Assembly (NCBI GenBank): GCA_017999985.1
Contig: JAGNKU010000002.1
Coordinates: 310,001-374,000, forward strand
Direction: 5' to 3'
Source: Phycisphaerae bacterium
GTDB taxonomy: Bacteria; Planctomycetota; Phycisphaerae; UBA1845; Fen-1342
Length of the DNA: 64,000 nucleotides
The position numbers and the translations under genes were made by a program. How positions within the stretch are numbered: the stretch's first letter is position 1; every line of letters starts with the position of its first letter. The notes beneath the pieces are model-generated. The model had not been told where the DNA came from and ran no database searches. It saw only the letters and a list, made by a program, of their open reading frames with translations. Below, piece by piece: positions 10,119 to 31,636 of this stretch.

Positions 10119-10147
10119 TTGTCGGCGGCGCGGCCGATCGCTATATT
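10119..10147 (+). promoter_or_regulatory. Sigma-70-like promoter of the tetrahaem/NHL-octahaem operon
   Basis: TTGTCG (10119-10124), a 17-base spacer and TATATT (10142-10147) make a good housekeeping-type promoter about 45 bases before the ATG at 10191. It sits in the 181-base divergent gap between the barrel operon and this operon. Its position also argues against starting the tetrahaem gene at 10119. Confidence 0.6.
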
Positions 10148-10190
10148 CGTGCCACGAGCCGCCAAGTCCGCCGTCTTCAGGAGCACCGGG

Positions 10191-10868: not shown

Positions 10869-12865
10869 CGTACATCCCGAATCGCCGCTGGCTCGCCGGC
10901 ACCGCGCTGGTCGCCGGCGCCTTGGCTGCATCGTTGCTTCCGAGCTGCGTGACGACCCGGCCCGAACTCACCGCGCAGGCCCCTTCGCCGCTGTACCCGC
11001 CGCCACCGCAGGTTCCACGCGTCGTTGCCCTCGGCACCCTCCGCGGCGCGCCCCCGCCGTCCCGGGCCGAAGTCAATCTGACCCTGTTCCTCTTCGGGGC
11101 CGCCCCGCCGCCGCCTCTCACCATCGCGAACCCCACGGGCCTGGCCGCCCGCGAGCGCGCGGTGCTCATCTGCGATCACGCGCTGAGCACCGTCTTCCGT
11201 TGGGACGCCGACACGAATCACATCTGCGAGGAGTCACTCCGGCCCCCCGCCGAGCATCCGTTCGCCATCGACCTCCTCCCGGACGGCCAGCGCCTGCTCT
11301 GCGATCGTCGCGGCGTGTTGCGAGTCGCCGCGGACGGCGCCGTCCAACAGCGTTACACGATCGAGGGCGGACCATATCGCCCGAGCGGCGTCCTCGCCGT
11401 CGACGAGCATGTCTGGGTCGCCAACGCCGCCGCGGATCGTATCGAGGTCTTCGCGCTCGACAGCGGCGCACACCTGCGCTCCATCGGTCGCTACGGACAA
11501 GGCCCGGCCGAGTTCTCGCTACCGCGCAGTCTGGCCCGCACGCCCGACGGCAACATCTGCATCGTGGATGTCCTGAACAACCGCGTGCAGGTGCTGGGTC
11601 CCGACGGCACGTGGGTTCGTGACGTCGGCGGCCCCGGCGACACCACCGGCCGCTTCGGCCGACCGCGCGACGTAGCCGTGGGCCCCGACGGTGCGATCTT
11701 CGTAAGCGACACTTTCTCGCAACGCGTCCATGCCTTCACCCGCGACGGCCAGCCGTTGCTCGCGTTCGGCGAACCCGGATCGGGACCAGGTGCGCTGGCT
11801 CTGCCCGCCGGCGTCGCTATCAGCGCCCACGCGCCACAAACGGAGACTGCCCCCGCGGTCGAGACCGTGCCGGCCTACTACGTGCTGGTCGCGGAACAGC
11901 TGGATCGTCCCGGTGTGCGGGTCTATGCCTGGCTCGCGGGGAATGACAAAGCCGCCGCCGAAGCCCTGCCCGCCGGCACCGCGACGAACTGGAAGCCCAC
12001 CTACCCGGAATCTGCGGCGATCAACCCGCACTGGGATGCCACGCGGTGCGCGACTTGTCACACGTCCTCCGGCGGCAAGCTCTTCCCCATCGCCCCTGAA
12101 GCGGTGAACGCCCTCTGCATATCCTGCCACGATGGGGTGAAAGCCCCCGCCGATCCACACCCCATCGGTCGCGCCGCGCAGACGGACCTCGTCCAAACGC
12201 CGGACGACTGGCCAACCGTGGACGGTGCGATCGGCTGCCTGACCTGTCATGACATCAAACGCCACTGCGAGCCCACCGCCCAGCGCCCCGCCGTCAACGC
12301 CGTGCTGCTGCGCCACTACGACGCGCAGCAACCCCTCGAATACTGCGGCAACTGCCACACCGCGGACATCGGCGGCCGCTTCAGCCCGCATCAGCAGCGT
12401 GACGCCAGCGGCAAAGTCCGCGAGGACGCCTGCCTGTTCTGCCACACGCGGCGGCCCGAGGTACCAGCGGATGGTCGCCGCCGCTTCGAGCCGCACGTGC
12501 GCGTGGAGTCGTCCGACCTGTGCCTCAACTGCCACGTGCGGCACTGGGACCTCTCGCCGCTCGGCCACGTGGACCGGCCGGTCACGCCGGCGATTCGGCA
12601 GTGGATGCTGATGAATGAAATGAGCGGCCAGGCCAACGTCGGCCGCGCGCAATTAAGGCACATGGCCGACGAGTCCGGACGCGAACCAGCCCGGCTGCCG
12701 CTCGGCAAAAACCGGGTCACGTGCTACACGTGCCATAACCCGCATTACGCCGGCATGTTTCCGCCGGACAGCGAACTGGGTGCGCTCGCCGCCAACCCCG
12801 TGGATCGGAAGGCGGCGCTGCGGACGGATTGGATCGACCTGTGCTCCGAGTGCCATCATCACTAG
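10853..12865 (+). CDS. NHL propeller fused to octahaem cytochrome, lipoprotein
   Basis: 670 residues from ATG 10853 (a GTG at 10844 is an alternative). The signal ends SLLPSC, a slightly unusual lipobox with Cys32. Residues about 90-390 form NHL blades (FSLPRSLARTPDGNICIVD, FGRPRDVAVGPDGAIFVSD). Eight CXXCH motifs fill residues 399 to the end: CATCH, CISCH, CLTCH, CGNCH, CLFCH, CLNCH, CYTCH and CSECH, the last two residues after it being His. The join of a propeller and a haem wire in one chain matches the larger 20-haem protein at 28493-31636, and the propeller alone resembles the lipoprotein of the divergent operon. A surface or outer-membrane-tethered electron carrier is the natural reading. 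Confidence 0.9.
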   Translation: MPPALAYIPNRRWLAGTALVAGALAASLLPSCVTTRPELTAQAPSPLYPPPPQVPRVVALGTLRGAPPPSRAEVNLTLFLFGAAPPPPLTIANPTGLAARERAVLICDHALSTVFRWDADTNHICEESLRPPAEHPFAIDLLPDGQRLLCDRRGVLRVAADGAVQQRYTIEGGPYRPSGVLAVDEHVWVANAAADRIEVFALDSGAHLRSIGRYGQGPAEFSLPRSLARTPDGNICIVDVLNNRVQVLGPDGTWVRDVGGPGDTTGRFGRPRDVAVGPDGAIFVSDTFSQRVHAFTRDGQPLLAFGEPGSGPGALALPAGVAISAHAPQTETAPAVETVPAYYVLVAEQLDRPGVRVYAWLAGNDKAAAEALPAGTATNWKPTYPESAAINPHWDATRCATCHTSSGGKLFPIAPEAVNALCISCHDGVKAPADPHPIGRAAQTDLVQTPDDWPTVDGAIGCLTCHDIKRHCEPTAQRPAVNAVLLRHYDAQQPLEYCGNCHTADIGGRFSPHQQRDASGKVREDACLFCHTRRPEVPADGRRRFEPHVRVESSDLCLNCHVRHWDLSPLGHVDRPVTPAIRQWMLMNEMSGQANVGRAQLRHMADESGREPARLPLGKNRVTCYTCHNPHYAGMFPPDSELGALAANPVDRKAALRTDWIDLCSECHHH

Positions 12866-12887
12866 GCGCCCGCCGCAGGAGGACCGC

Positions 12888-14231
12888 ATGCTCTGGCGCT
12901 CGCTCAGCCTGGATATTCACACCTCTCCCCCGGCCGCCTCGCGAAGAAGCCCCAGCGTCGTCCGAGCGCTCAGCGGCGTGATAGCGGCGGGCACACTCAC
13001 GCTCCTCGCCGGTTGCCCCGGCACCCCACCCGACGACGGCCCGGTCTTCAACAACCCCGAGGACCCCACCAACGGCGGTGCCAGCTACATCGGTGCCGCC
13101 GCGTGCAGCGCCTGCCACCCCGACATCGACGCCGCCACACGCTTGCACGGCCACGCCTCCGCGCTCAAGCGCAGCGAAGGCGCCGCACCCAGCTATCCCA
13201 CCGACGCCACGCGCGCCGGCGTGCCCAGCCCCCCGGACGGATACGCCTGGACTGACGTGAGCTACGTCATCGGCGGCCATGCCAAGGGCGCGATCTTCGT
13301 CGACCGCGACGGCTACGTGCTGACCGACGGCGTCGCCGGCGTGAACACGCAGTGGAACCTCGACTTGCCGCCCAACGGCACAAGCGCTGGCTTCGCGGAG
13401 TACCTGCCCGCGCAAGCCACGCTGCTGCCATTCGCGTACGACTGCTTCCGCTGCCACACGGTCAATCCGCAGCCGCAAACCGCCGACGACCCACGCACCC
13501 AGGACGGGCGCCCCGGCATCGGCGGCACGTGGTCCGAGCCCGGCGTCATGTGCGAAGCCTGCCACGGACCCGGTTCGAAGCACGCGCCTGACCCCGAGGC
13601 CCGCACCATGTTCGTCGATTCGTCGGCCGCGCTATGTGCACGCTGTCACACCGCCGGCGATGACCCCGATGTGATCCTTGCCGCGGACGGCTACGTTAAT
13701 CCGAATACGCAATACGCCGAGTTGCGGGCCAGCGGCGGGCACGCGGACTTCGCGTGCGGCTATTGCCACGACCCGCACGCCTCGACTGCGTACGCTCGTG
13801 CGACCGGCGTTCGCAACGGCTGTGTAGGCTGCCACGCGGATCAGAACCTCGCGTTCCACGATGGTTTCACATTCGTGCGCGGCGACTACGTGGAGGCGTT
13901 GACTTGCGAAAGCTGCCACATGCCGTTCACCGGCCGGAGCAATTCCGTCGCGGGCGCGGACGTGGTCGGCACGCGCGACCCGGGGCGGATGGGCGATGTC
14001 CGCGGGCACATCTTCCGCATCGACACGCAGGCCCCGCGCTATACGCAGATGTTCACACCGGACGGCACACAGGTCATCAAGGACGAGAAAGGCCACGCCG
14101 GCGTCTCGCTCGACTTCGTCTGCCTGCGCTGCCACAACGGCATCGGCAACGCGTTTGTCATCTCCTCCGACGGTGCCGCGGTCATCGCGACGCAAATGCA
14201 CCAAAACGCCGCCGCGTCCGCCAGCGAGTAG
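12888..14231 (+). CDS. Octahaem c-type cytochrome lipoprotein
   Basis: 447 residues. The ATG at 12888 follows AGGAGG and gives a lipoprotein signal ending LTLLAGC (Cys43). Eight CXXCH motifs: CSACH, CFRCH, CEACH, CARCH, CGYCH, CVGCH, CESCH and CLRCH. YIGAAACSACHPDIDAAT followed by an H-rich stretch is typical of the cytochrome c554 family, and SCHMPF after the seventh haem recalls the cytochrome c nitrite reductase and hydroxylamine-oxidoreductase-related octahaem proteins. There is no evident catalytic Tyr cross-link or Lys-ligated haem motif that I can point to, so enzyme or wire remains open. Third gene of the operon, 22 bases after the NHL-octahaem gene. Confidence 0.88.
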   Translation: MLWRSLSLDIHTSPPAASRRSPSVVRALSGVIAAGTLTLLAGCPGTPPDDGPVFNNPEDPTNGGASYIGAAACSACHPDIDAATRLHGHASALKRSEGAAPSYPTDATRAGVPSPPDGYAWTDVSYVIGGHAKGAIFVDRDGYVLTDGVAGVNTQWNLDLPPNGTSAGFAEYLPAQATLLPFAYDCFRCHTVNPQPQTADDPRTQDGRPGIGGTWSEPGVMCEACHGPGSKHAPDPEARTMFVDSSAALCARCHTAGDDPDVILAADGYVNPNTQYAELRASGGHADFACGYCHDPHASTAYARATGVRNGCVGCHADQNLAFHDGFTFVRGDYVEALTCESCHMPFTGRSNSVAGADVVGTRDPGRMGDVRGHIFRIDTQAPRYTQMFTPDGTQVIKDEKGHAGVSLDFVCLRCHNGIGNAFVISSDGAAVIATQMHQNAAASASE

Positions 14232-18021: not shown

Positions 18022-19542
18022 TTACTCCGGCTTCGGCGGCCCCGGCAGCGGATCCTTCAACCCTACGGCCGCCCAGAACGCCGGCACGCCGTGGCAGGCC
18101 TCGCAGCCCAGCGCCATCTCCTTCGGCGCGACCTCGTGGCTGACTTTGAGGTACATGACGGTCTCAGGGAATCCGTAGGTTCCGGTGAACGGAATCCCCG
18201 TGTACGCCGCCCCGTCCGCGAGCGCCAACCCCCAGTCAAACTCGACCCAATACGGATTCGCGCCGCCGGCCGTGCCAAACAGGTGCGGCACGCTCAGCCG
18301 CTTGGCCAACGTGTCCGCCGGCTGCCGGCCCACCATTTTCTTGAACGGGTAGATTTTCGCGTCCGCGTCATCCTTCGTCGCCGCCGGCTCGGCGATGACC
18401 ACCGGGTCTTCCGCGGTACCCGCCACCGTGTACGTATCGCTCACGCCGATGATCATCCGCCGCCACAGGTCGTTGTGCCAGCGATACTCCGGCTGCACGC
18501 CCTTCGCCCACACGAACGTGCCCTTCTGCTTGTCGTACGTCGGCTGGCCGAGTTCATCCGTCGGAATCGGGCTGATGTCCTGGCCGGCCGTATCCCAATA
18601 CCACGCCACCTTCGTCGGCTTGCTGCGCGCGAAGGCCGGAATATGGCACGTTTCGCAGGCTACGCGCGCCAGGTGCGCGTTCAGCAACGGATCGACCGGC
18701 GGGTTCGCCGTGTGCACGTCGGTATCCCCGTGGCAGCGTGTGCACGCCGGCGCCGCCCCGCCCTCGTTCACCGAATGCAGCGCAAAGCCGGCGATGCCGT
18801 GATTCTGTTCCGTATGGCACTCCTGGCACGCGAAATCCAGTCCGCCCATATGCACATCCATCTCGCGCGTCGGGCTGGCCAGATCGGACGACATGTCGCC
18901 ATGCTTCACGTTGTCGCCCCCGCCGGCGTAGAAATGACAGAAGCCGCAGTTGCGCCGCGTCGGCGGCCCCACCTTGTACGCGACCTGCTGCAGTTCGTCG
19001 GGGCCGACCACCGTTACTTGACCTTCGTTGACGAGCGCCGCCGCCCCACCCCCACCGCCATCCGTCGGGTGCTTGGCATACGTACCCGTTGTGTCGTGAC
19101 AGATGAAGCAATCGACCTGCGCCGTGCTCGTGAAGTCGAACGTGTCATCCTTCCAGCCATAGCTCGGATGGCACTGCGCGCAGCGCCCCTCGTTGGACGG
19201 TACCGCGATGCAGAAGTTGTTCAGCAGATCACGCTTGCCGTGCGTTTCCGTTTCGTGCCCGACGATGTTCACGGACGCCCCCGCCCACTGCCAGTGCCCG
19301 CTCTCCAGCAGGTCCGCCGCCACATCCGCATGGCAGATCTGGCATGTCGCCGGCCCCTCGTACCCCCCGGGGACAACCTCCGTCAGGAAGCGTTCGTGAT
19401 CGGTCTTTTCCACCGGCGTATTGCCATCCGGCGGTGAATTCCCGTCCGGCACGCCGTCGTCGGGCGGACACCCCCCCAGTGCCCCCAGCCCCGCGATGCC
19501 GAGCCCCGTCAAGGTGACGATCAGGCAGTATCGCAGAGACAC
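18022..19542 (-). CDS. Octahaem cytochrome, tetrathionate reductase (OTR) family, lipoprotein
   Basis: 506 residues. I use the GTG at 19542, which has GAGGAG 6 bases upstream and a lipoprotein signal ending LGALGGC (Cys25). Eight CXXCH motifs: CQICH, CAQCH, CFICH, CGFCH, CQECH, CTRCH, CETCH and CEACH. The stretch NEGRCAQCHPSYGWKDDTFDF followed by VDCFICHDTTGTYAKHP is the hallmark of octahaem tetrathionate reductase proteins. Characterised members reduce tetrathionate, and in vitro also nitrite and hydroxylamine. The haem spacing and the length fit the family; here the protein is lipid-anchored. It is convergent with the beta-helix gene, separated by only 21 bases, and 191 bases downstream of the OmcA/MtrC-like gene on the same strand. 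Confidence 0.9.
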   Translation of the reverse strand: MSLRYCLIVTLTGLGIAGLGALGGCPPDDGVPDGNSPPDGNTPVEKTDHERFLTEVVPGGYEGPATCQICHADVAADLLESGHWQWAGASVNIVGHETETHGKRDLLNNFCIAVPSNEGRCAQCHPSYGWKDDTFDFTSTAQVDCFICHDTTGTYAKHPTDGGGGGAAALVNEGQVTVVGPDELQQVAYKVGPPTRRNCGFCHFYAGGGDNVKHGDMSSDLASPTREMDVHMGGLDFACQECHTEQNHGIAGFALHSVNEGGAAPACTRCHGDTDVHTANPPVDPLLNAHLARVACETCHIPAFARSKPTKVAWYWDTAGQDISPIPTDELGQPTYDKQKGTFVWAKGVQPEYRWHNDLWRRMIIGVSDTYTVAGTAEDPVVIAEPAATKDDADAKIYPFKKMVGRQPADTLAKRLSVPHLFGTAGGANPYWVEFDWGLALADGAAYTGIPFTGTYGFPETVMYLKVSHEVAPKEMALGCEACHGVPAFWAAVGLKDPLPGPPKPE

Positions 19543-19733
19543 GCACGTCTCCTCATTGAGCTGAGTCAGCGCGAGCCTTCCCGCGGCTGCGCGCGGACAT
19601 GCCACTGGCTGTGGTAGTCCAATCGCCCCCGCAAGTCAACGCCCCCCGTGCCAGCAAGACGCAGGGCAGGGAAGACTCCCTGCCCTGCGGTGATTCCAGG
19701 TGTGCCGTCGCTTCCGTTACGCCCGCCGGTCGA

Positions 19734-22070
19734 CTACGGAACCGCGTGGCTCCGCTCCACCGAGAATGTCTTGCCGTCGCCGTGGCAGACCGCGCAGCCT
19801 TCCTGGCCCACGCCGAGCGTGTTCAGCTCGACGTGCACGGCCGTCGCGGTGGAGTCGTGGCACGACGTGCAGGCGACCTTCCAGATGCTGACGTCGTTGC
19901 GTTCCACCGGTGTCTTCCACGCATCCGTCGCGTGGCACGCCACGCAATTCGCCGGCCCGTTGGGCATCACCGGGGTGAATGCTGTCGAAAAGTCGGCGAC
20001 GTTGTTGCCGAATCCGACGAGGTCGTACACGCCTCCGTCCTGCACGACGCTCAGCGCGCGCGCCGCGTGAATCTTGTGGATCATGATCTTGAAGTCGATC
20101 GAATCCGCCTCGGGCGCCTGCGTCTGACCCTCGGCGACGTTCGGACGATCCTCCGCGCCCGCCGTGTGGCACATTACACAATTCTCAACACTCTTGCGGC
20201 CATTGCCGTGGAAGCGGAGATCGCCGTGGCAGGCGTTGCACTTCGCGTCCGTGACAAAGCCCGGATAGTCCCCCGCCGCGCCGGAGCCGGCGGTGTTGAT
20301 GCGGACGCCAAACAACCCTGGCTCCGACGTCTCGCGATAGGTGGTGTCGCCAAGCGTGAATTGCCGGTACGCATACACCATGATCGTGTAGGACCCCGCC
20401 TTCAGATTCTGGCCGCTCAACTCGCCCCAGCCGTCGGCATAGGTGAACGCCGCCGAGTCGTTCAGTGGCGCCGGATACGTCGCCGGAATCGCCGCCGGGC
20501 TGGTGTACACGAACGGTCCGGTCCCCGTCGCGGGCACGCCACCCGTCATCGTCACCACGCCCTCGTTGGAGGTGGCCTTGATCGCGGCCGTCGAGCCCGC
20601 CACCGGCAGGATCTTCTGGTAGTTCACCGTCGGACCGGCCATGACGAAGTTCACCGACCACAGATCTTCCATGTCAACGGGGTCATCGTTCGCATCGAGT
20701 ACGCGGAACGTGACGATCGGCGCATCTCCGACCGCGAAGAACCCATCGCCGCTGTTGCCCTCCACGGAGTCGATCACAACCTTCAGGCCCAGGATGTTGT
20801 CGGGGTTCGACAGCGGCGGCACGTGCACTACCTCCGCGTCGTACGTCATCCCGGCACCGTGGCACAACGCGCAGGATCCGTCCGCGAACTTGTGCACAAC
20901 GCCAGCCGAGTCCGACGACTTCCCCGGCGGCACGCGGTACGCCACGTTGTTCAGCTGCGTCTGCTTCAACGTGCCAAACAGCTCGTTGTCCTGATCGAGC
21001 ACCGTCCCGCTGTCGAAGTTCAGGTCATCGTGGCAGGTCGTGCAGCGCGCCTGGGTCAGGTTCGCGTCCGCGTAGATCTCGGCGCCCTGCGCCGCGCCGC
21101 CGTGACACACTTGGCAGTTCCGCATCTGCTCGTTGAAGCCGGTGCCGCCCGGCATGAACGGGAACTGCACGTGCGAGAAATCCACCACGTTCCCCTGGAA
21201 TCCGGCCACCTCGTAGAGGTAAGGGTCCGAGCCATCAGCCGTCGCGGCGACCCGGGGCAGATTCGCGCCGGTGTGCAGCTTGTGAATCATCTCGCCGAAT
21301 TCAATCGACTCGGCACCCGCGGAATCGAGCGCACCGGCGGTATGGCAGAGCACGCAGCCGGTCAGGCTGAAGCGGTTGGACCCGTGCACGGTCATCTGCA
21401 CGTGGCAGATGTTGCAGTTGGCCTGCGTCACGAACTCGCGCGCCGTCGGCGTCGCGCCGCCAACCGCGAAGTCGAACGTCGCATCGCCGGCCTTGCGGAC
21501 GCTCTCACCGTCCACGGTGAAGGTCCGCCGTGCCTCGATTCCTACGGTGTAAGTACCGGCGGCGACGGTGCCGCCGCCGCCCGACGGCGCGTTCACGGGC
21601 TTGGCGTACGTGGTGGGCAGATTGCCCAGCGCGTAGGTGTAGCTTCCGTCGGCGTTGGTCGTGACCTTCGTCAGGTCGCCCTCCGGCACGATCACCCGCT
21701 GGTAGCCCTCGGTCGGCCCCGACACGTAGATCGAGAACCGGTCGAGCTCCTCGATCGCAATCGTATTGCTGCTGCCATCCTGGATCGTGAACGTCACGTT
21801 CACCGGACCGCCGAGTTCGACCGGGCTGCTGCCACTCACATCCGTAATGGTGACGACCGTGTCCGGAAGCGTATCTCCGGCTGCGAGGCCCGGATCGCCC
21901 TGCGGACCCGTTGCACCCGTCGGCCCCGCCGGCCCCGTCGGACCCTCCGGACCCGTCGGACCCGTCGGACCCTCCAACAGGCCGCCTGGACAGCCGCCGA
22001 GCATCAGGCTCAGCGCCGCGATGATGCTCAATCCGACGCCTGTACGCAACATTGCCGAGCTGCGCCTCAT
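19734..22070 (-). CDS. OmcA/MtrC-family decahaem c-type cytochrome, lipoprotein
   Basis: 778 residues from ATG 22070, preceded by AGGAG. The lipoprotein signal ends SLMLGGC (Cys27). A short collagen-like run of GPT/GPA triplets follows (about 34-60). Beta-rich domain I leads to a first pentahaem group (CNICH, CVLCH, CQVCH, CTTCH, CALCH, from residue 219). A second beta domain (LGLKVVIDSVEG onward) leads to the second pentahaem group (CNACH, CVMCH, CVACH, CTSCH, CAVCH). This alternation of split beta-barrels and pentahaem domains is the architecture of OmcA and MtrC, surface terminal reductases of Shewanella. It implies a surface-exposed cytochrome and makes an extracellular electron route very likely. 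No MtrA or MtrB is directly beside it; the barrel operon at 5137-10009 may serve. Confidence 0.93.
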   Translation of the reverse strand: MRRSSAMLRTGVGLSIIAALSLMLGGCPGGLLEGPTGPTGPEGPTGPAGPTGATGPQGDPGLAAGDTLPDTVVTITDVSGSSPVELGGPVNVTFTIQDGSSNTIAIEELDRFSIYVSGPTEGYQRVIVPEGDLTKVTTNADGSYTYALGNLPTTYAKPVNAPSGGGGTVAAGTYTVGIEARRTFTVDGESVRKAGDATFDFAVGGATPTAREFVTQANCNICHVQMTVHGSNRFSLTGCVLCHTAGALDSAGAESIEFGEMIHKLHTGANLPRVAATADGSDPYLYEVAGFQGNVVDFSHVQFPFMPGGTGFNEQMRNCQVCHGGAAQGAEIYADANLTQARCTTCHDDLNFDSGTVLDQDNELFGTLKQTQLNNVAYRVPPGKSSDSAGVVHKFADGSCALCHGAGMTYDAEVVHVPPLSNPDNILGLKVVIDSVEGNSGDGFFAVGDAPIVTFRVLDANDDPVDMEDLWSVNFVMAGPTVNYQKILPVAGSTAAIKATSNEGVVTMTGGVPATGTGPFVYTSPAAIPATYPAPLNDSAAFTYADGWGELSGQNLKAGSYTIMVYAYRQFTLGDTTYRETSEPGLFGVRINTAGSGAAGDYPGFVTDAKCNACHGDLRFHGNGRKSVENCVMCHTAGAEDRPNVAEGQTQAPEADSIDFKIMIHKIHAARALSVVQDGGVYDLVGFGNNVADFSTAFTPVMPNGPANCVACHATDAWKTPVERNDVSIWKVACTSCHDSTATAVHVELNTLGVGQEGCAVCHGDGKTFSVERSHAVP

Positions 22071-22272
22071 GGCCGTTCTCCTTCGCGATTTGCGCTCGCA
22101 ACTTCCTGACATGTGCCCGTTGAGTCGTATGTTATCGCGCGAAGGGTGCAATGCAATGCAAACTTGCGCGCTCCGCGCCGGCCACGTCAGTATGCTCCGG
22201 AACGCGCCAGCACCGCAATCCTCCCCAGCGGGGGATCTCCTCCCCCTTAGGGGGGAGCCGACTGCGTACTGT

Positions 22273-22938
22273 TCAGAGGTTGTTACGGACCGCGTAGCTC
22301 ACCGCCGCCGCGCGCGAGCACAGCGCCAGCTTGCGGTAAACGCTCTTCAGATGTGAACGCACCGTCGAGGACGATACGCCGATTTCCGAGGCGATGACAT
22401 CGTTGCGCAACCCGCGCCCCACCAACCGCAGCACCCGCAATTCCTGCCCGGTCAGGCCCGCCGGCGGCCCGTCGTCCGCCGCGCCGCCCGCCATGCCGAT
22501 CAGACGGTGCGCGACCGCCTGCGAAAGCCGTACCTGCACGGCTCGGTCGTCCGTGACATCACAGAACAGCAGCGCGCGCCCGATCAGCGCACCGTCCGGG
22601 CTGTAACACCGCGACGCATTGGCCTTGAGATCGGCGCGCTGCGGCCAGCGCAGCGCGATGTCCGCCATGTGGTGCCCCTCCATTTCACCGGCGTCACGCC
22701 AGAACGCGGCCAACTGCGGGTCTTTCAGGACCTGGCCGACCGCGTGTCCGACGCATTGCGCGCGCGGCGCCCCCAGGACGTGCTCGGCTGCGCGATTCAA
22801 CCACACCACCCGTCCCTGCGTGTCCACCAGCACCAGGCCGATCGACAGGCCCGCCACCGCCTGCGCCAACAAACAGGCATCCTCGCAATCCTGCCCTCGC
22901 GGCGATTTCCCGGCCGGCATGCGGCTGCGCGCAATCAT
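22273..22938 (-). CDS. PAS-domain LuxR-type transcriptional regulator
   Basis: 221 residues, starting at ATG 22938 after GAGAGGG. The N-terminal half is PAS-like: SIGLVLVDTQGRVVWLNRAAE, then LLFCDVTDD at the end of the fold. The C-terminal half is a LuxR/FixJ helix-turn-helix (LTGQELRVLRLVGRGLRNDV, then IASEIGVSSSTVRSHLKSVY). It has no receiver domain and no visible haem- or flavin-binding signature. It is transcribed divergently from the CbcL-like operon across a 97-base gap, and lies upstream of the decahaem gene on the same strand, so control of electron-transfer genes is a reasonable guess. Longer in-frame extensions toward 23157 would run into the opposite gene. Confidence 0.85.
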   Translation of the reverse strand: MIARSRMPAGKSPRGQDCEDACLLAQAVAGLSIGLVLVDTQGRVVWLNRAAEHVLGAPRAQCVGHAVGQVLKDPQLAAFWRDAGEMEGHHMADIALRWPQRADLKANASRCYSPDGALIGRALLFCDVTDDRAVQVRLSQAVAHRLIGMAGGAADDGPPAGLTGQELRVLRLVGRGLRNDVIASEIGVSSSTVRSHLKSVYRKLALCSRAAAVSYAVRNNL

Positions 22939-23035
22939 GTTCTGGCCCTCTCGCGTACACCACCAACCGTCGATTATAGTTACCGCCACGTCACGCGGCC
23001 TCCACGGCCGGAGTTTTTCTCCGAGACGAGGCGCC
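22939..23035. promoter_or_regulatory. Divergent control region with small hairpin
   Basis: 97 bases between the PAS-LuxR gene and the CbcL-like gene. TTATAGT near 22976 could be a -10 element for the rightward operon. CGGAG-TTTTT-CTCCG (23009-23023) is a 5-bp inverted repeat close to the start codon, preceded by two direct CGGCC copies. Either could be a regulator site; neither is a known operator that I can name. Confidence 0.35.
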
Positions 23036-24931
23036 ATGTCTGAGCACCGGTCCAGCTTTCTGCCCCGCACGCAGCGCCGCCGCTCATGGCCCTGGCTCGC
23101 GGTGCTGTTCCTGCTGGCTCCGCTGCCGCCAGCCGCGCGGGCGGGCGACCCGGACAACTGCCTGCTTTGCCACCAGTTTCGCGGACTCAGCCGCTACGAC
23201 CCCGCGGCCGACCGCGCGCACCTGTTCTTCGTCGATCCGGACTACACTCATGAGCTCCGCGGCCCGCACGCCCGGCTCGCCTGCACGGCGTGCCACGCGC
23301 GCAGCGAAGTCGGTGTCGTGCCGCATGGCGCCGTCTCCCGCGTGAACTGCACGCAGACCTGCCACCTCAGCGCCGCGGGCCAGCTCGACCGCCGCTTCAG
23401 TCACGAAAACGTCGCCTGGCTCCTCGATCGCGGCGCACACACACATGCTGTGCTCAGCAGCCTGACCTTCACCGGCGGACCCTTGCTGGCGCCCGGCCAG
23501 TCCCCCTGCCTGTACTGCCACGACGAGCCGGTCTTCCGCGACCCCGCCAACGTGGTGACCACGCTGTCGCCACGTGATGACCGGACTTTCGACCGCTGCG
23601 ACGTCTGCCATGCCGAGCAAGTCCCCATCGATGTCGCCTACTACCTGCGGCATATCGCGGCCCGGCTCCAGTCCGCCCGGCCCCCGCTCGAGATCGCCCA
23701 GGTCTGCGCCGTCTGCCACACGGACCCCGACGTCCTCAAGACGTTTGAGATGCCCAACGCCGTCGCCAGCTTCGTCCGCAGCTTCCACGGCAAGGCCGCG
23801 CTGCTCGGCGACAACACGACCGCCGACTGTCTCGCCTGCCACGTCGCCGCCGGCGAGAACGCGCACCTCATGCTCGCCAAGGCCGACCCGCGTTCGTCTG
23901 TCCATCCCGCCAACGTCGCCAACGCCTGCCGCAGCACCGCCTGCCATCCGGGCGCCGACCCGCGCTTCGCCGCCGCCGCCGTGCACCTTGACCTGCCCAC
24001 CGCCCGCGGCACGCTCGAATTCGCCGTCGCGGCGGCGTTCATTCTGCTGACCATCGGTACGTTCGGCCCGTCGCTGCTGCTCTGCCTGCTCGAGCTGGCC
24101 CAGATCGTCTTCGGCCGCCGGCATGAGGGCGAGCACGCCGCCCTGCAGCTCGTGCAGGCAGTGCTGGCCCACCCCTACGGTCGCACGCGTTTGGCGCGCT
24201 TCACGGTCAGCCAGCGCTACCAGCACTGGGTCCTGGTCGTGCTCTTCACCACGCTCGCCGTCACCGGCTTCCCCATGAAATTCGCCGATCACGACTGGGC
24301 CCGCGGCGTGATTGAGACGCTCGGCGGCCTGCGCGTCACCCGCACGATTCACCACTGGGCCGGCATCGCCCTTGTGCTCGGCTTCGCCGCGCACTTCGTC
24401 TATTGCCTGCACACGTACTGGCGGCGCGCCCGCGAACGCGGCCCCGCCGGCGGACGCGTCGGCCTCTGGGCGGCGATCTGGAAGCTCCCGATGGTCGTCC
24501 ACCCGCGCGACCTGCTGAAAGGGCATCATCTGCTGCTCTATCTCTGCGGCCTGCGCCGTGAGCCGCCTTCGTTCGGCCGCTTCAGCATCAAGGAAAAATT
24601 CGAGTACATCGGCGTGTTCTGGGGCACGACGCTGCTGGGGCTCACCGGCGCCCTGCTGTGGGGCGAGCAAATCTTCTCCCACTACCTCAGCGGCCGCATC
24701 CTGAACATCGCGCTCATCGCCCACACGTACGAGGCCTTCCTGGCCATCATCCACGTCGGCATCCTGCACATCGTCAACGTCATCTTCTCGCCGCACGTCT
24801 TCCCCCTCTCGCTCGCCACGATCACCGGCGACACCCCGCTCGGTGAACTGGCTGCCACCCACTCCGAGTTCGTGGCGGAGGCCGCCCGCGACCTGAACGT
24901 CCAACTCCCAGCGGAGGCACCCCATGAGTAA
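23036..24931 (+). CDS. CbcL-like fusion: octahaem cytochrome c plus b-type cytochrome
   Basis: 631 residues from ATG 23036, just after GAGG. A signal peptide (WPWLAVLFLLAPLPPAARA) leads to a periplasmic domain with eight haem motifs between residues 42 and 305: CLLCH, CTACH, CTQTCH (CX3CH), CLYCH, CDVCH, CAVCH, CLACH and CRSTACH (CX4CH). From about residue 320 an integral domain of the cytochrome b561/FdnI-HydC type follows (RYQHWVLVVLFTTLAVTGFP, RTIHHWAGIALVLGFAAHFV, HTYEAFLAIIHVGILHIVNV), with several in-membrane His suited to two b haems. Geobacter CbcL has the same fusion and oxidises menaquinol for low-potential extracellular acceptors. The function here is by analogy. The stop overlaps the next start by 8 bases. 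Confidence 0.87.
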   Translation: MSEHRSSFLPRTQRRRSWPWLAVLFLLAPLPPAARAGDPDNCLLCHQFRGLSRYDPAADRAHLFFVDPDYTHELRGPHARLACTACHARSEVGVVPHGAVSRVNCTQTCHLSAAGQLDRRFSHENVAWLLDRGAHTHAVLSSLTFTGGPLLAPGQSPCLYCHDEPVFRDPANVVTTLSPRDDRTFDRCDVCHAEQVPIDVAYYLRHIAARLQSARPPLEIAQVCAVCHTDPDVLKTFEMPNAVASFVRSFHGKAALLGDNTTADCLACHVAAGENAHLMLAKADPRSSVHPANVANACRSTACHPGADPRFAAAAVHLDLPTARGTLEFAVAAAFILLTIGTFGPSLLLCLLELAQIVFGRRHEGEHAALQLVQAVLAHPYGRTRLARFTVSQRYQHWVLVVLFTTLAVTGFPMKFADHDWARGVIETLGGLRVTRTIHHWAGIALVLGFAAHFVYCLHTYWRRARERGPAGGRVGLWAAIWKLPMVVHPRDLLKGHHLLLYLCGLRREPPSFGRFSIKEKFEYIGVFWGTTLLGLTGALLWGEQIFSHYLSGRILNIALIAHTYEAFLAIIHVGILHIVNVIFSPHVFPLSLATITGDTPLGELAATHSEFVAEAARDLNVQLPAEAPHE

Positions 24932-26039
24932 GCCCGCTGCTTACCGTCGCTCCGCCCGCGACTGGCTCTGCCTCCTCGGCCGCTTCGGTCTCGAGTCCGT
25001 CCGCCGCAGCTATGCCGTCGCGGTCATTGCCGTCGTGGCGTGGCTCAGCTTTCTCGCCCTGCGCTACCTCGTCGTCACATTGATGTTCCCGGCGCCCGCC
25101 CCGGCCCAGATCACCGGCATCCCCACCCGCCTGACCGAGTCGGTGCTCCGCACGGACAGAAGCGCATGGCGCGGCGTCACCACGGACGCCAACCCGCGCA
25201 CGCCCCCCGCGCACTACCACCGCATCGCGGGCTGGATTCAACCCGATCGCTTCAACGGCTGCACCACGAGCGGCTGCCACGATCCGCTGCCACACGCCCG
25301 CCGCAAGGAGGTCCGTGCTTTCCTTAACATGCACGCCACGAGCCTGCACTGCGGCGTGTGCCACCTGCCGCGCGACGAGCAGCCGCTCACCCTCACCTGG
25401 TATGACCTGGGCCGCGGCGCGCCGCGCGGCGCCCCCGAGGTCGTGCAGCTCTACGCCTGGCTGACCTCGGAACAGGGCCGCGCCGCGCTGGCCGACCCGA
25501 CGCCGGCAATCCAGGCCGAGCTGGTCGCCAGGGTCCGCGAGGCCGCCCGTCAGGCCGACCACGCCCGGGCGCTGGTTGACCTGGCGGACCAGCTAGCGGC
25601 CGAACGCCACAGCAGTCCGGCCTTTGCCGCCCTGGTCGAGACCGCCCGCACGATCCTGCCACGCCATTTCCGCGGCGAGTACGGCGCCAAGCTGGCCCTG
25701 CTGGACCGCACCACAAAAACGCCGACTCTCGGATACGTAGGCACACAGGCCGCCAACGAGGCATATCTGCGCGAGGCCCCGCAAGCTGATGCCGCCCGGC
25801 GGGCACAATTGCTGGCCGCCGTGCATCCGGCGTTGCGCACCCCGACGCTGCACTGCACGGACTGCCACCGCACCCCGGGCATGCTCTTCGACTTCGCTGC
25901 CGCTGGTTATCCCGCGGCACGGATCGAGATGCTCTCGCAGCCCGTGATCTTCCAGATGATCGAGCACATCGCCGCCGGCCAGCCCTTCTACCTCCCCAGC
26001 TTCGTCATCCCAACCACTCAGCCAAGAGATCCGCAGTGA
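24924..26039 (+). CDS. Membrane-anchored trihaem cytochrome
   Basis: 371 residues with one N-terminal transmembrane anchor (AVAVIAVVAWLSFLALRYLV, about residues 32-51). Three haem motifs are spread widely: CTTSGCH (CX4CH, about residue 111), CGVCH (about 140) and CTDCH (about 312). The middle 150 residues are helical and haem-free (rich in Ala, Arg and Glu). No family is recognised. Translational overlap with the CbcL-like gene suggests that it is a partner, perhaps taking electrons from the octahaem domain. RIAGWIQPDRFNGCTTSGCH shows the first motif in context; the wide-spaced motif makes automated haem counts likely to miss it. Confidence 0.8.
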   Translation: MSKPAAYRRSARDWLCLLGRFGLESVRRSYAVAVIAVVAWLSFLALRYLVVTLMFPAPAPAQITGIPTRLTESVLRTDRSAWRGVTTDANPRTPPAHYHRIAGWIQPDRFNGCTTSGCHDPLPHARRKEVRAFLNMHATSLHCGVCHLPRDEQPLTLTWYDLGRGAPRGAPEVVQLYAWLTSEQGRAALADPTPAIQAELVARVREAARQADHARALVDLADQLAAERHSSPAFAALVETARTILPRHFRGEYGAKLALLDRTTKTPTLGYVGTQAANEAYLREAPQADAARRAQLLAAVHPALRTPTLHCTDCHRTPGMLFDFAAAGYPAARIEMLSQPVIFQMIEHIAAGQPFYLPSFVIPTTQPRDPQ

Positions 26040-26437
26040 GGCATCCGCTAGAGAAGCTGCCGGAGATTGTCGCCGCCTACAGCCGCGACGGACTGTACTT
26101 TGCCTCGATCCGGCTGAGTCGCGCCGGAGTGGGCCGCGTCTTTGAGCTGGGTATCTCCCGCGCGTCGTATCTGGCGCTGCGCCGTGTGTTCCAAACGCGG
26201 CCGTTTGATGCGCTACCCGGGCTTCGACAACGGTACTATTTCGAGTGGCCACACCGTCGAAATGACGCTGACCCCAACCGATGCTCTGGTACGATCCGGA
26301 TTGAGCAAGACCGTCGAGGCCGGAATATGGAGTTCGAGCTGCCGCAGCAGCTCATCGCCAACCTGCTCTGGTTCTATGAGATGGAGACGCTCGAGCCAGC
26401 GCGCCACCTGCGCTGCTGGCTCCCACAAGATGAATGA
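26036..26437 (+). CDS. Small protein of unknown function, third gene of the CbcL-like operon
   Basis: 133 residues starting at GTG 26036, which overlaps the trihaem stop as GTGA. I do not recognise a family. It has no signal peptide, no transmembrane segment and no haem motif, so it should be cytoplasmic. It reads as a mixed alpha/beta protein with several Arg and aromatic residues (ISRASYLALRRVF, QRYYFEWPHRR, LIANLLWFYEME). A cytoplasmic product in a membrane cytochrome operon might help assembly or might be unrelated. Coding is supported by the tight coupling rather than by homology. Confidence 0.6.
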   Translation: MRHPLEKLPEIVAAYSRDGLYFASIRLSRAGVGRVFELGISRASYLALRRVFQTRPFDALPGLRQRYYFEWPHRRNDADPNRCSGTIRIEQDRRGRNMEFELPQQLIANLLWFYEMETLEPARHLRCWLPQDE

Positions 26438-26504: not shown

Positions 26505-28337
26505 TCACTCCCGCGTCAACTGCCCCATCACGTCATCCAGGTCGCGCACGCTCAGATCGAGCAGATACAGCGCGTAGTTCTTGTTGTGGATCCCGTTGCC
26601 CGCCTTGATGAACTGCACATTTTGTCGGGCGGGCGTAATCCGCGTCTCGATGTCCGCCGGCAGCTCGATGCCGCGCGCCTGCAGATCCGCGATCCGCTGA
26701 TCGACACGTACCAGCGCCGCCTCCGCTTCCTGCACGTACGTCGCGATCTCGCTGCGCCACTGCTCGAACAACCGCTCGTAGTCACTGCCGTGACACGCGA
26801 TGCACGTCGCCTCCGACGCCTTCACGAGCGCGTCGCCCTTCAGATCGACCGCCGGCTTGATGTGGCAGCCCGTGCAATTCAGCCGCGAGCCGAACATCGC
26901 ATTCGGCATCGGCCGCAGCGCGCCGGTGCCGCCGATCCCCATGAGCAGCTCGACCTGCTCGTGGTGATGGTTCGGGTGGCAATGCTGGCAATCATCGAGA
27001 ATGGGCTGCAGGAACCCCGCGCTCGTCCCGACGTGCGTCGCATCGATCAGCTTATGCTCGATCGCCCGGTGACAGTCCACGCACCGGGCCCACTGACCCG
27101 CGACGTGCGTCTGGTGATACCGCGCCACCGTCTCGGTGTCGCGCGTCGCGAAATCCACCAGATACTTCTCTTGATCGTGGCAGTTCGTGCACGTGCGTTC
27201 CGACACGACCGCCGCGCCCTGGATCACGTCCAGGTGACAGCTCGCGCAGTCGATCTTGCGGTCCACGATTTCGCGGTGGTCCATCAGCGCCGGCCCCGGG
27301 GCCGACGTGGTCGGAAACTGCTGCTGCCAGCTCGCCAGCACCGCCTGATCGTGGACGAGAATCTTGCGCGTCGGCGGCGCGTGGCACTTCAGGCATTCAC
27401 CCGTGTCGCGATTGAACGCCTGGTTGCCGAAGTGGCACGTGAAGCACGTCTCCAGGTCCACCGCCATCACGTGCGCCAGCCCCGACGGATCGTAGCTGTG
27501 GCACGCAGCGCAGTTGAGCCCCCCCAATTGCCGCAGACGCGTCCGCTCGTGCTCCAGCCGCGCGTACTCCAGTACGTCCGCCAGCAGGTCGTCTCGCGCC
27601 AGACCCCCCACCAGCTCGCGCAACTTTGCCTCACGCCGTTCCGCCGGCCCCACCTGCACCGCCGCGACGCGCAGCGGCTCGAAAGCCGCCGGTGACACCG
27701 CCTGCTCGAGCCGTTGCCGCAGGCCCGCGAGTGACGCCTCGGTCTCCGTCAGCTTCAGCTCCGTCCGCAGGTGCTTTTCATGCACGAATGTGACCGTCGG
27801 CAGACGAGTGACCTCCGTCTCCTGATCGCCGACCAGGCGTTTCTCCACGCGCGGCTCGCCGATCAAGAGCGGCTTGCGCATGTACTCGTTGTCGCCATGA
27901 CAAGCCGACCTCAGGCAACTTGCGTCATTGACGCGCGCCCGTGGCCGGCTCGTGCCGTAGCGCCCGCTGAAGTAACTGGCGACCTGCGACAGCCCCCTGA
28001 ACTTCGCCTTGAGCGTGTGCTGCTCGCCCGGCGCGTAATGACACTCCACGCACCACGTCCCCACCTTCTTGCCATGCACATCCTGGCTCCACGACTGGTA
28101 GTAGGAGTCCATGATGTGGCATGTCCCGCAGAAACTCGGCCGTGCCGTGTAGTACTCCGCCCCCCCGATGCCCAACACCCCCAGCACGACGATCACGCCG
28201 CCGATGAGCAACCCCTTGCGCAGCACGCGGCGCCATCGTGGCCGCGCCGGCCTCCCCCTCGGCGTCGCCGCGTCACGCGCCGGAACGTCCCCCGCCGCTG
28301 CAGAATCGCCCGCATGCTGCGCATCATCCGTGGACAT
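26505..28337 (-). CDS. NapC/NirT-type quinol dehydrogenase extended to 12 haems
   Basis: 610 residues from ATG 28337 (a longer upstream in-frame start is possible; no clear ribosome site). One transmembrane anchor (LLIGGVIVVLGVLGIGG, about 42-60) precedes a NapC/CymA-like start, PSFCGTCHIMDSYYQSW and WCVECHYAPG. The haem motifs are CGTCH, CVECH, CLRSACH (CX4CH), CAACH, CFTCH, CLKCH, CASCH, CTNCH, CVDCH, CQHCH, CTGCH and CIACH, between residues 70 and 516. A helical, probably coiled insert lies at about 165-255, and a haem-free helical tail of about 95 residues ends the protein. NapC and CymA have four or so haems and oxidise menaquinol; here the same module seems to continue into its own periplasmic wire. 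Confidence 0.85.
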   Translation of the reverse strand: MSTDDAQHAGDSAAAGDVPARDAATPRGRPARPRWRRVLRKGLLIGGVIVVLGVLGIGGAEYYTARPSFCGTCHIMDSYYQSWSQDVHGKKVGTWCVECHYAPGEQHTLKAKFRGLSQVASYFSGRYGTSRPRARVNDASCLRSACHGDNEYMRKPLLIGEPRVEKRLVGDQETEVTRLPTVTFVHEKHLRTELKLTETEASLAGLRQRLEQAVSPAAFEPLRVAAVQVGPAERREAKLRELVGGLARDDLLADVLEYARLEHERTRLRQLGGLNCAACHSYDPSGLAHVMAVDLETCFTCHFGNQAFNRDTGECLKCHAPPTRKILVHDQAVLASWQQQFPTTSAPGPALMDHREIVDRKIDCASCHLDVIQGAAVVSERTCTNCHDQEKYLVDFATRDTETVARYHQTHVAGQWARCVDCHRAIEHKLIDATHVGTSAGFLQPILDDCQHCHPNHHHEQVELLMGIGGTGALRPMPNAMFGSRLNCTGCHIKPAVDLKGDALVKASEATCIACHGSDYERLFEQWRSEIATYVQEAEAALVRVDQRIADLQARGIELPADIETRITPARQNVQFIKAGNGIHNKNYALYLLDLSVRDLDDVMGQLTRE

Positions 28338-28425
28338 AGCGATATCCAAACACTCGGAGTTCACGCGGGCAGCAAATGTGTATTCTGCCCGTCTCGGTCG
28401 GTCGCCGCGGCCACGCCACATACTC

Positions 28426-28492: not shown

Positions 28493-31400
28493 ATGCTGCG
28501 TCCTGGCAACCTGGCACACGTCGCCCGCGCTGCCGCGTTTCTCGCTATCACGTCCGCCAGCAACGCCGCTCCGCCTGAGCCACCCGCGCGGTTTGTCGCC
28601 ACTCCGGTGCTCACGTTCCAGTACGACGGCCCGCCCGCACTCCACATGCCCACCGCCGTCGCCATCGGGCCCGGCGGCGACGTGTACGTCACCGACGGGG
28701 CCCTGGACCGCATCGTGGTCTTCGCGCCCGACGGTTCGCTCCGTGAAGAATTCCAGACCGTCGGCGAAGAAACCCTCGCGCAGCCCATCAGCCTCAAGTT
28801 CGACCGCCAAGGCATCCTCTGGATCGCCGACACCGGCCACGGTCGCGTCCTCGCCCGTAACCCGGACGGCAGCCTCGCCCGCGTGATCCGCTGCCCGCCC
28901 GCGCCCGACGCCAGACACTCCCCGGACATCACCGATGTGGCCGTCAACGCCGACGGCACCCGTATCTGGCTGGCCGACAACGACAATCACCGCTTGCTCC
29001 GCTATGACGTCGCCGGCGCGACCTTCAGTTCGACCGGCGAGCGCGGCCAATCGCTCGGCCAGCTCTACTACCCATTCATGCTCGCGCTGGGTCCCACCGG
29101 CGATGTCTTCGTCAGCGAGCCCGTCACCGGCCGCGTTCAGATCTTCGACGCCGCCGGCCGCGTCGTGCGCAGCCTTGGCACGTACGGCGCGGACCTCGGC
29201 CAGTTCTACCGCCCCAAGGGCATCGCGATCGATGCCGACGGCAACGCCTGGGTCGTCGACGGCACGCTCGGCGTCGTGCAGGTTTTCCGGCCCACCGGCA
29301 GCCTGCTCGGCGTTCTGTGTGAGCCAGGCGGCCAGCCCTTGAAGCTCGTCTCCCCGGCCGGCATTGCGTTTGACGCCGACGGCAACCTGTACGTTGCCGA
29401 AGTCTCGGCGCACCGCGTCCACAAATTCGCCCTCAAAGTGGATCCCGACGTCGCGCCACCCATGCTGCCGCGCCGTACGACCGTTACCCCGCTGCAGCCG
29501 CAGGCGTGCGCTGTCTGTCATCTTGAGTGGCTCGAACCTCTGGCGCGCGGTGTGACAACCGCGATCATGGCCCCGCCGACAACCACGCCCGAACATCCGG
29601 TCGCCAGCCGGCCGGAAATGTGCCTCTCCTGCCACGATGGCGCGGTCGTGGATTCGCGCCGCCGGATCTGGCTTGAGCACGGTCACAGCACGGACATCCT
29701 GCCGCCACCGACGATGCAGGTACCAGACTTCCTCCCGCTCGTGAACGGCCGGATCGAGTGCCGCACGTGCCATTCCGCCCACGCCGCCGGCCAACCCATG
29801 GGCGATATCGCGACGGCGGTGTTCCTGCGCGTCGCCAACCGCGCCAGCGAGCTGTGCATGAGCTGTCACGCCGACAAGACGGGCGGCCGCGCGGCCGGCA
29901 CGCATCCCACCGGCGGTATGCCCTGGGCCATCCCCGAGGCGCTGGTGCAAGCCGGCGCCCAGGTCGGCCCCGACGCGCGCGAGCTGACGTGCCAGGTCTG
30001 CCACACGCCGCACGGCGCCCGCCATGACCACTTGCTCGTCATGGGCACCGAATCCAGCCAGCTCTGTGTCACCTGTCACGATCAGATGCGGCCTGGCATG
30101 TTCCGCGACGGCGGACCGGCGGAGCACCCGCTCAGCCCAGTCGTGAACGCCGAGCAGGCCGCGGCCATCCGCGAACTCGGCACGCAGCTCGGCCCCGGCG
30201 AGCACCTCATCTGCCTGTCATGCCACAAGCTGCACCACGGCAAAGGCGAGCGCTTCCTCCTCGCCGACGACCTGACGGACGGTCAGATGTGCCTGCGCTG
30301 CCACTCCGACAAGCAGAGCGTCGTCGCGACGCACCATGACCTGCGCACCAACTTCCCCGAGGAGCGCAACCGTCTGGGCATGACCGCGCACACCGGCGGC
30401 CCGTGCAGCTCCTGCCATCTCTTCCACCGCTACGCACGCGCGCCGGAGGCCAGCGAACTCGACCCCGGTGGCGGCAAGTGCATCACCTGCCACCAGCCCG
30501 AGCGCCCCGCACAGACCAAGATCCTCGGCTCCGCCAATCACAGCCCGATCGGCTGCACCAAGTGCCACGATCCGCATACCGGCCAGTTCGGCCAATTCAT
30601 GCACGACGCACCTTACGTCGTCTGCACGCAGTGCCACACAGATCAGGCCGGGCTCGGCGGCGGCCCGCACGATGTCACGCGCGCATCGCCATCCTGGCCC
30701 GTTGCCTCCACGGCCATCGGCGATCGGTGCCTGGCTTGCCACCGCCCCCACGGCGACGACCAGACCGGTCGCTTCCGCGCCGGCCTCGCCGCCGACGCAC
30801 CCGTCGGCGAAGCCTCCTGCCTCGCGTGTCACCGAGCGGTTGGCCCGGACGCGCAGGCCCCGCTCGCCCTGCTGCATCCGCGCGACGTGACCGCGCAGTC
30901 AACGGCCACCGAAGTGCCGCTGTCGACCGGCGGCGAACGCAACGAACGCGGGGAACTCGCCTGCCGCAGTTGTCACGACCCGCATCGCGGTCGCGGCGCT
31001 TCCGAAAAGCTCGTTCGCGTTGCGGCCGGCGACAGCCCGCAAAAAGCCTGCACCAACTGTCATGCCGAAATGACCAACCTGCACGCGATCGGCCATGCCG
31101 CCGGGGTGCTGCGGGCGGCCGGTTTTGAGCCGGGCACCTGCGGCCCATGCCACGTTCCGCACGGCCGCCGCGATGACATCGAGCCGCGCTTTCTGTGGCC
31201 GAAGAAGCTCGAGTTCGTCATGGACGCTGCTGATCCACTGCGGGTGGCGAACCAGCATTGCGTAGCCTGCCATCACACGGGTGGCCCGGTCGCGCCCCCG
31301 GCCATCGCCACGCACCCACCCGCCGAGATGTTCAACGCCACCGCCCCCGACGCCTCCGGCTACCTGCCGCTGTTCAACGAGCGCGGCGAAGTCGACCCGC

Positions 31401-31636
31401 AAGGCAAGATCGCCTGCCGCACCTGTCACCTCACGCATGGCCGGCAGACGGCTGCCCCCTTGCCACCGGCGCTCGGCGAAATCGCCAGCCGGGAGCTGCG
31501 CGCCCGCCAGTGGCATATCCGCTCATTCACCGCCAACGCCGTCTGCACGACCTGCCACGGCACCGATGCGCTGCGCCGTTTCATGTACTTTCACGACGCG
31601 GCCCGGCGCGGCGGACCCATCGCCGGTGGCCGCTGA
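28493..31636 (+). CDS. NHL propeller fused to a 20-haem cytochrome
   Basis: 1047 residues from ATG 28493, after GAGG. A signal peptide (AAAFLAITSASNA) leads to an NHL propeller at about residues 35-325 (LHMPTAVAIGPGGDVYVTDG, LYYPFMLALGPTGDVFVSEP, FYRPKGIAIDADGNAWVVDG). Twenty CXXCH motifs follow between residues 339 and 1022, about one per 34 residues, all canonical. Many are in paired-CXXCH form (CLSCHDG, CTKCHDPH, CRSCHDPH, CQVCHTPH). There is no transmembrane segment after the signal, so it should be periplasmic or exported. The domain order equals that of the NHL-octahaem lipoprotein, which suggests duplication with haem-repeat growth. It is divergent from the NapC-type gene. Function is inferred as a long electron wire. 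Confidence 0.9.
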   Translation: MLRPGNLAHVARAAAFLAITSASNAAPPEPPARFVATPVLTFQYDGPPALHMPTAVAIGPGGDVYVTDGALDRIVVFAPDGSLREEFQTVGEETLAQPISLKFDRQGILWIADTGHGRVLARNPDGSLARVIRCPPAPDARHSPDITDVAVNADGTRIWLADNDNHRLLRYDVAGATFSSTGERGQSLGQLYYPFMLALGPTGDVFVSEPVTGRVQIFDAAGRVVRSLGTYGADLGQFYRPKGIAIDADGNAWVVDGTLGVVQVFRPTGSLLGVLCEPGGQPLKLVSPAGIAFDADGNLYVAEVSAHRVHKFALKVDPDVAPPMLPRRTTVTPLQPQACAVCHLEWLEPLARGVTTAIMAPPTTTPEHPVASRPEMCLSCHDGAVVDSRRRIWLEHGHSTDILPPPTMQVPDFLPLVNGRIECRTCHSAHAAGQPMGDIATAVFLRVANRASELCMSCHADKTGGRAAGTHPTGGMPWAIPEALVQAGAQVGPDARELTCQVCHTPHGARHDHLLVMGTESSQLCVTCHDQMRPGMFRDGGPAEHPLSPVVNAEQAAAIRELGTQLGPGEHLICLSCHKLHHGKGERFLLADDLTDGQMCLRCHSDKQSVVATHHDLRTNFPEERNRLGMTAHTGGPCSSCHLFHRYARAPEASELDPGGGKCITCHQPERPAQTKILGSANHSPIGCTKCHDPHTGQFGQFMHDAPYVVCTQCHTDQAGLGGGPHDVTRASPSWPVASTAIGDRCLACHRPHGDDQTGRFRAGLAADAPVGEASCLACHRAVGPDAQAPLALLHPRDVTAQSTATEVPLSTGGERNERGELACRSCHDPHRGRGASEKLVRVAAGDSPQKACTNCHAEMTNLHAIGHAAGVLRAAGFEPGTCGPCHVPHGRRDDIEPRFLWPKKLEFVMDAADPLRVANQHCVACHHTGGPVAPPAIATHPPAEMFNATAPDASGYLPLFNERGEVDPQGKIACRTCHLTHGRQTAAPLPPALGEIASRELRARQWHIRSFTANAVCTTCHGTDALRRFMYFHDAARRGGPIAGGR

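Follow-up and report, generated by a model that had tools for sequence, protein, structure and literature searches.

An NHL propeller fused to a 20-haem cytochrome in Phycisphaerae, a putative periplasmic electron wire

A gene of a Phycisphaerae bacterium encodes a protein in which a six-bladed NHL beta-propeller is followed by 20 haem-binding motifs. The 20-haem fusion protein is real and conserved, and is a bigger, differently built relative of the known protein wires. We give a probability of about 60% to the reading in which it is a periplasmic wire, approximately double the length of MtrA, that links quinone cytochromes to an outer-membrane conduit with the propeller as its dock. No prior description was found of the fusion, the strict plan of 20 motifs plus 20 further histidines, the tetrahaem growth of the array, the defined set of inner-membrane partners, or the distribution over Phycisphaerae and Deferribacterota.

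Small diffusing cytochromes are the usual explanation of how electrons cross the periplasm in extracellular respiration; fixed periplasm-spanning wires may or may not exist. The 20-haem family offers a clean test of whether they do: its chain of 20 haems is conserved and carries a dock, its longer relatives have 24 and 28 haems, its partners point to the inner membrane, and it extends to the Deferribacterota, some members of which are in culture. The findings also suggest that extracellular electron transfer is an overlooked trait of uncultured Phycisphaerae.

Architecture of the gene product

The window, i.e. the whole 64,000-nucleotide stretch of DNA that was analysed, contains a dense multihaem cluster from ~5 to 32 kb in which ten frames carry at least two CXXCH motifs. 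The studied gene lies in this cluster (Table 1). An earlier note, made from the DNA letters, had described its product as a single 1047-residue chain with a propeller at about 35-325, 20 canonical motifs at 339-1022, and no membrane anchor after the signal. All of these features are borne out. The frame at 28493-31636 (+) is intact, with 1047 codons and no stop, and its product runs from a signal peptide through the propeller to the haem motifs. The NHL score and the AlphaFold model put the propeller at residues 34-316, the count of CXXCH motifs is 20 where the composition predicts 0.09, and no hydrophobic segment of anchor strength follows the N-terminus. The N-terminus reads MLRPG...ITSASNA/APP and looks cleavable, and no lipobox is seen by inspection. 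An alternative upstream ATG at 28376 would place 39 extra residues ahead of the signal peptide and is the less probable start.

A chimeric junction between the propeller and the haem part had been set beforehand as a possible refutation. An assembly chimera is rejected because the same fusion recurs across many genomes: full-length fused orthologues, about 40–60% identical, are present in more than 20 others.

Table 1. Coordinates of the features discussed, as positions in the window
Feature	Position	Strand	Remarks
11-haem cytochrome, barrel operon	5137..6843	-	
NHL propeller lipoprotein, barrel operon	6837..7892	-	
Candidate outer-membrane barrel	7889..10009	-	706 aa; no Pfam match; adjoins 11-haem gene in relatives too
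4-haem OmcE-like cytochrome	10119..10868	+	4e-10 to 9yuq
NHL + 8-haem lipoprotein	10844..12865	+	
8-haem lipoprotein cytochrome	12780..14231	+	
8-haem lipoprotein cytochrome with PF11783 domain	18022..19605	-	
10-haem MtrC/OmcA-type surface lipoprotein cytochrome	19734..22151	-	
Inner-membrane quinone cytochrome, 6-haem domain + cytochrome b561/formate-dehydrogenase-gamma-type domain	22619..24931	+	probable start near 23036
Inner-membrane-anchored dihaem protein	24924..26039	+	
Small ORF after dihaem gene	26036..26437	+	no family match
NapC/NrfH-type membrane cytochrome, 11 haem motifs	26505..28421	-	divergent from 20-haem gene; probable start at 28337
NHL propeller + 20-haem cytochrome (studied gene)	28493..31636	+	1047 aa
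Signal peptide, N-terminal	28493..28570	+	~residues 1-26, ends SNA/A; inspection, low pLDDT 1-27
Six-bladed NHL beta-propeller	28592..29440	+	residues 34-316; NHL profile, AlphaFold model
Haem module 1 (haems 1-4)	29480..29953	+	residues 330-487
Haem module 2 (haems 5-8)	29954..30367	+	residues 488-625
Haem module 3 (haems 9-12)	30368..30691	+	residues 626-733
Haem module 4 (haems 13-16)	30692..31102	+	residues 734-870
Haem module 5 (haems 17-20)	31103..31633	+	residues 871-1047

Haem array

Across residues 330-1047 the spacing is ~36 residues per haem. Conservation was scored on an alignment of 27 family members, in which 18 of the 20 motifs are present in every member, the haem 5 motif in 26 of 27, and the haem 20 motif in all 24 members that reach that far. 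Twenty non-motif histidines of the haem part (396, 398, 430, 471, 507, 545, 581, 615, 645, 683, 695, 726, 753, 795, 831, 868, 890, 941, 982, and 1034) are conserved at 89–100% in the same alignment, and the next best, His513, reaches 81%. Since 20 further histidines are conserved beside the 20 motifs, all haems can be bis-His ligated, and no haem appears obviously open as a catalytic site. From haem 3 onward the arrangement follows a regular pair pattern. The odd haems have the form CXXCHxxH, and the even haems have a histidine 11-16 residues past the motif, with nine haems of each kind. Filament subunits such as OmcS lend a haem ligand to the neighbouring subunit, and therefore the count of distal histidines cannot separate a monomer from a filament.

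Sequence comparison indicates that the array, here divided into five tetrahaem modules, lengthens in steps of four haems to 20, 24, or 28. Some relatives have 24 haems, and the extra four always lie directly after haem 12. The Deferribacterota have 28, with the eight additional haems near the C-terminus. When profiles of four-haem blocks are compared, offsets of 4 and 8 outscore offsets of 6 and 10 in most pairs; only the relative order of these scores is used because CXXCH patterns inflate all of them. In a Myxococcota record (L072) the gene breaks off after haem 4 and the remainder lies in another ORF, apparently with its own signal. Wire paralogues that have neither the propeller nor the first four haems (L035, with 23 motifs; G021:C215; G002:C7; G014:C26) occur in several genomes of the order, and none is present in the window's own genome.

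Predicted fold of the haem part

The AlphaFold model of the full-length protein has a mean pLDDT of 79 and a pTM of 0.57, the latter too low to fix the course of the chain with certainty. Since propellers crowded the Foldseek and VIA matches of this model, a separate model was made of the haem part (pLDDT 74, pTM 0.64). Only one PDB entry matches the fold of the haem part with confidence, namely MtrA (6r2q_A; Foldseek probability 0.99, E 1.7e-3). The superposition is partial, with Z 6.1 and 5.4 Å over 224 residues, and covers approximately haems 8-17. The same entry is also the top PDB sequence match of the haem profile (2.5e-18). OmcE and OcwA follow as fold matches with low Z; the match to OmcE is weak (Z 4.2, 3.6 Å over 123 residues). 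The hydroxylamine oxidoreductase and octahaem sulfite reductase folds match at the noise level, with Z of 2-3.

Beyond these matches, the haem part shares with the MtrA/DmsE/PioA-MtoA decahaem cytochromes the repeated CXXCHxxH and a density of one haem per 33-36 residues. On the other hand, it has 20 haem motifs and not the 10 that TIGR03508 (DmsE/MtrA) calls for, and its match to that model (4.8e-29) scores 101.6 bits, under the curated cut-off of 192.2. It also carries an N-terminal propeller, and no porin gene lies beside the 20-haem gene, the candidate barrel being ~18 kb away. The haem part may work like a long MtrA, yet it falls outside the DmsE/MtrA family as defined.

The NHL propeller

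The propeller scores 84.6 bits against PF01436 (NHL repeat), above the curated threshold of 20. In the AlphaFold model residues 34-316 form a six-bladed propeller with a pLDDT mostly above 90, which superposes on 6xg7 with Z 35.8 and 2.4 Å over 272 residues.

The fused form is found in most Phycisphaerae members of the family. Separate neighbouring genes encode the propeller and the haem array in five divergent loci of Phycisphaerae (L066, L068-L071) and in the Deferribacterota (L073-L075); wherever the N-termini are readable, both products have their own signal peptide. The presence of adjacent genes, each with a signal peptide, points to a physical pair of propeller and wire, and where a family shows both split and fused forms its two parts usually interact physically. 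The separate NHL gene of the split relatives is closest to the 34-316 propeller and not to the cluster's other NHL proteins, and a chance or generic neighbour is rejected on this ground. When the split label is mapped on the haem-part tree, three changes are required, at least two of them by well-supported branches. The fused state is probably derived, since the Deferribacterota carry the split form, and may have arisen once or several times.

NHL proteins encoded beside multihaem genes are already known (PMC9769857, PMC10376724, PMC12016550, PMC10734462). No NHL-multihaem fusion of the present kind was found in the literature searched, most subscription papers lying outside its scope. The window holds a second NHL-multihaem fusion, an 8-haem lipoprotein at 10844-12865 (+) that is two genes in several relatives. 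Fusion of an NHL propeller to a cytochrome seems to have occurred more than once within this cluster.

Distribution of relatives

The family was detected in 48 of 114 genomes in the order-level search and in 18 of 50 Deferribacterota genomes; Seleniivibrio is one of the Deferribacterota with a relative. A phylum-wide search at E 1e-60 found it only in its own genome among 392 evenly drawn Planctomycetota, a count that is a rough lower bound since two candidates were scored per genome. A search of plasmids returned essentially propeller matches only. ORFs with 14, 18, 19, and 34 haems in Coriobacteriia and Anaerosomatales records (L080, L082, L083) match the haem part weakly.

Gene partnership

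In many Phycisphaerae the usual gene order is the 6-haem/cytochrome b561-type gene, the anchored dihaem gene, and the NHL plus 20-haem gene. As in the window, relatives often carry a NapC-type 11-haem gene divergent from the 20-haem gene. The order in the Deferribacterota, as separate genes, is 6-haem, cytochrome b, trihaem, NHL, and 28-haem, and the trihaem protein is a homologue of the anchored dihaem protein (E 1e-13).

Co-occurrence was counted in 61 genomes of the order, 35 carriers and 26 non-carriers of the 20-haem gene; the counts are raw and ignore shared ancestry, and several of the genomes are incomplete. The anchored dihaem gene is present in 32 of 35 carriers and in none of the 26 non-carriers, and the NapC-type gene in 23 carriers and again in no non-carrier. 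The 11-haem gene of the barrel operon is found in 34 of 35 carriers and in 9 of 26 non-carriers. Based on co-occurrence and gene order, therefore, the tightest genomic tie of the 20-haem gene is to the inner-membrane module and not to the barrel operon. The 11-haem outer-membrane partner is not obligatory, since it was undetected in one carrier and is absent from both Deferribacterota genomes checked.

The genes at 5137-10009 (-) and 10119-14231 (+) look, from their content, like a separate conduit. The first ~200 residues of the 5137-6843 (-) product match the OmcE nanowire subunit (1.3e-29). Together with the tetrahaem protein of 10119-10868, this makes an OmcE-type filament system in a planctomycete possible, and these OmcE-like cytochromes are better filament candidates than the 20-haem protein.

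Comparison with known systems

PCC3 of iron-oxidising Proteobacteria is a periplasmic cytochrome of ~21 haems, encoded in an electron-transfer gene cluster, for which a length sufficient to cross the periplasm has been proposed (PMC5566968, PMC10734462). By description, the present protein resembles it as a long multihaem cytochrome (20 versus ~21 haems) with a presumed periplasmic location. In contrast, the descriptions of PCC3 mention no propeller, and the membrane partner here is a b561-type/6-haem protein. No ORF with the PCC3 inner-membrane signature, two WX3HX13H motifs, is present within the window.

The Uet (undecahaem) clusters are known from Tenderiales and Gallionella (PMC10734462). 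In content, the genes at 5137-10868 (barrel-like, NHL, 11-haem, and tetrahaem) resemble these clusters, the barrel-like protein being a putative porin; no trihaem gene is seen in the window. Betaproteobacteria (L084, L087, L088) have homologous clusters in which an 11-haem gene accompanies two NHL genes, and these are likely Uet relatives. Unlike the named Uet genes, the 20-haem protein is an added part.

In Geobacter, the inner-membrane cytochromes ImcH and CbcL work with PpcA periplasmic shuttles (PMC12307469). The present system is similar in that NapC/NirT-type and b-type multihaem quinol cytochromes would feed a periplasmic carrier, but the carrier encoded nearby is one large wire and not a set of small diffusing trihaem proteins. 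A search of the window's own genome with PF14522 found no small PpcA-like trihaem protein, all matches lying in frames longer than 440 residues; PF14522 is one of several c7/c3 models, so it is a weak basis for absence. Compared with the OmcE nanowire subunit (7tfs), the haem part shows weak fold similarity over one stretch and differs in haem number, propeller, and genomic partners, and it is other genes of the window that are clearly related to OmcE.

Proposed function and alternatives

In the favoured reading, the 20-haem protein would be exported and unanchored in the periplasm of a planctomycete that performs extracellular electron transfer. The quinone pool would pass electrons to the b561/6-haem and anchored dihaem membrane cytochromes, or to the NapC-type 11-haem cytochrome, which would exchange them with one end of the 20-haem chain. 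The electrons would then travel along the bis-His haems of the five modules to the far end, which would meet the outer-membrane conduit of porin, 11-haem, and OmcE-like proteins, and from the 11-haem/barrel part they would reach OmcE-like and MtrC-like surface cytochromes. The propeller would act as a dock, holding the wire to a partner. Flow could run either inward or outward; most likely, electrons leave the inner membrane through the 20-haem protein across the envelope towards the outside. We infer the periplasmic location, the direction of flow, the partner of the propeller, and a length that spans the periplasm.

The description of the protein as a long wire in the earlier note is well supported by the 20 haem sites, the 20 conserved distal histidines, the tetrahaem repeats, and the MtrA fold match. 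Its suggestion that the propeller docks the wire to the barrel operon stands in part: the 11-haem gene of that operon accompanies nearly all carriers, but the closest partners are the inner-membrane quinone cytochromes, and for this reason the propeller more likely docks on the inner-membrane side or joins both sides. A more far-reaching proposal is that the docked chain bridges the inner-membrane cytochromes and the outer-membrane conduit as a fixed wire, a tetrahaem-lengthened module common to Planctomycetota and Deferribacterota. We regard it as tentative, with odds short of even; if it is true, electrons cross the periplasm without a diffusing shuttle.

The other idea of the earlier note, that the propeller caps a filament, finds no support. 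It belongs to a wider alternative that places the protein outside the cell, as a wire, a filament subunit, or a filament cap, with the propeller as a polymer or surface contact. A signal peptide without an anchor is also compatible with release to the cell surface, the window encodes NHL lipoproteins and OmcE-like cytochromes as well, and the haem part has its weak OmcE fold match. However, the most constant partners of the 20-haem gene are inner-membrane cytochromes, the gene has no special adjacency to the barrel operon, and the separate OmcE-like proteins suit a filament better, which makes this alternative unlikely. Only a shade less likely is that the chain plugs the outer-membrane barrel, part of it threading the pore, in the manner of MtrAB, and the remainder extending into the periplasm. 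The MtrA match over approximately haems 8-17 and the 34 carriers with the 11-haem gene fit such a plug, but the barrel gene, both here and in relatives, is paired with an 11-haem cytochrome of its own, and nine genomes have the 11-haem gene without the 20-haem gene.

A fixed geometry is suggested by the strict haem number and ligands, the ordered repeats, and the docking domain joined to the wire. These features argue against a capacitor that stores electrons in the periplasm, or a soluble relay among cytochromes without a fixed bridge, a reading that is more doubtful again despite the large capacity of 20 haems and the many potential partners in a cytochrome-rich neighbourhood. A reductase with an enzymatic haem site in the haem part is very improbable: the enzyme folds that hint at it match only weakly and at noise level, and the conserved second histidines equal the haems in number, so none need stay open for a substrate. 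Of all these readings, the periplasmic wire is preferred.

Other genes of the window

The 19734-22151 (-) product contains two MtrC/MtrF-type domains (1e-46) and is a possible planctomycete surface reductase. Amid the cytochrome cluster, a 1198-residue NosD/beta-helix protein with a BACON-type domain is encoded at 14404-18000 (+). A full-length bacterial serpin (5e-103) is encoded at 36978-38258 (-), near a phage-type integrase gene at 34492-35820.
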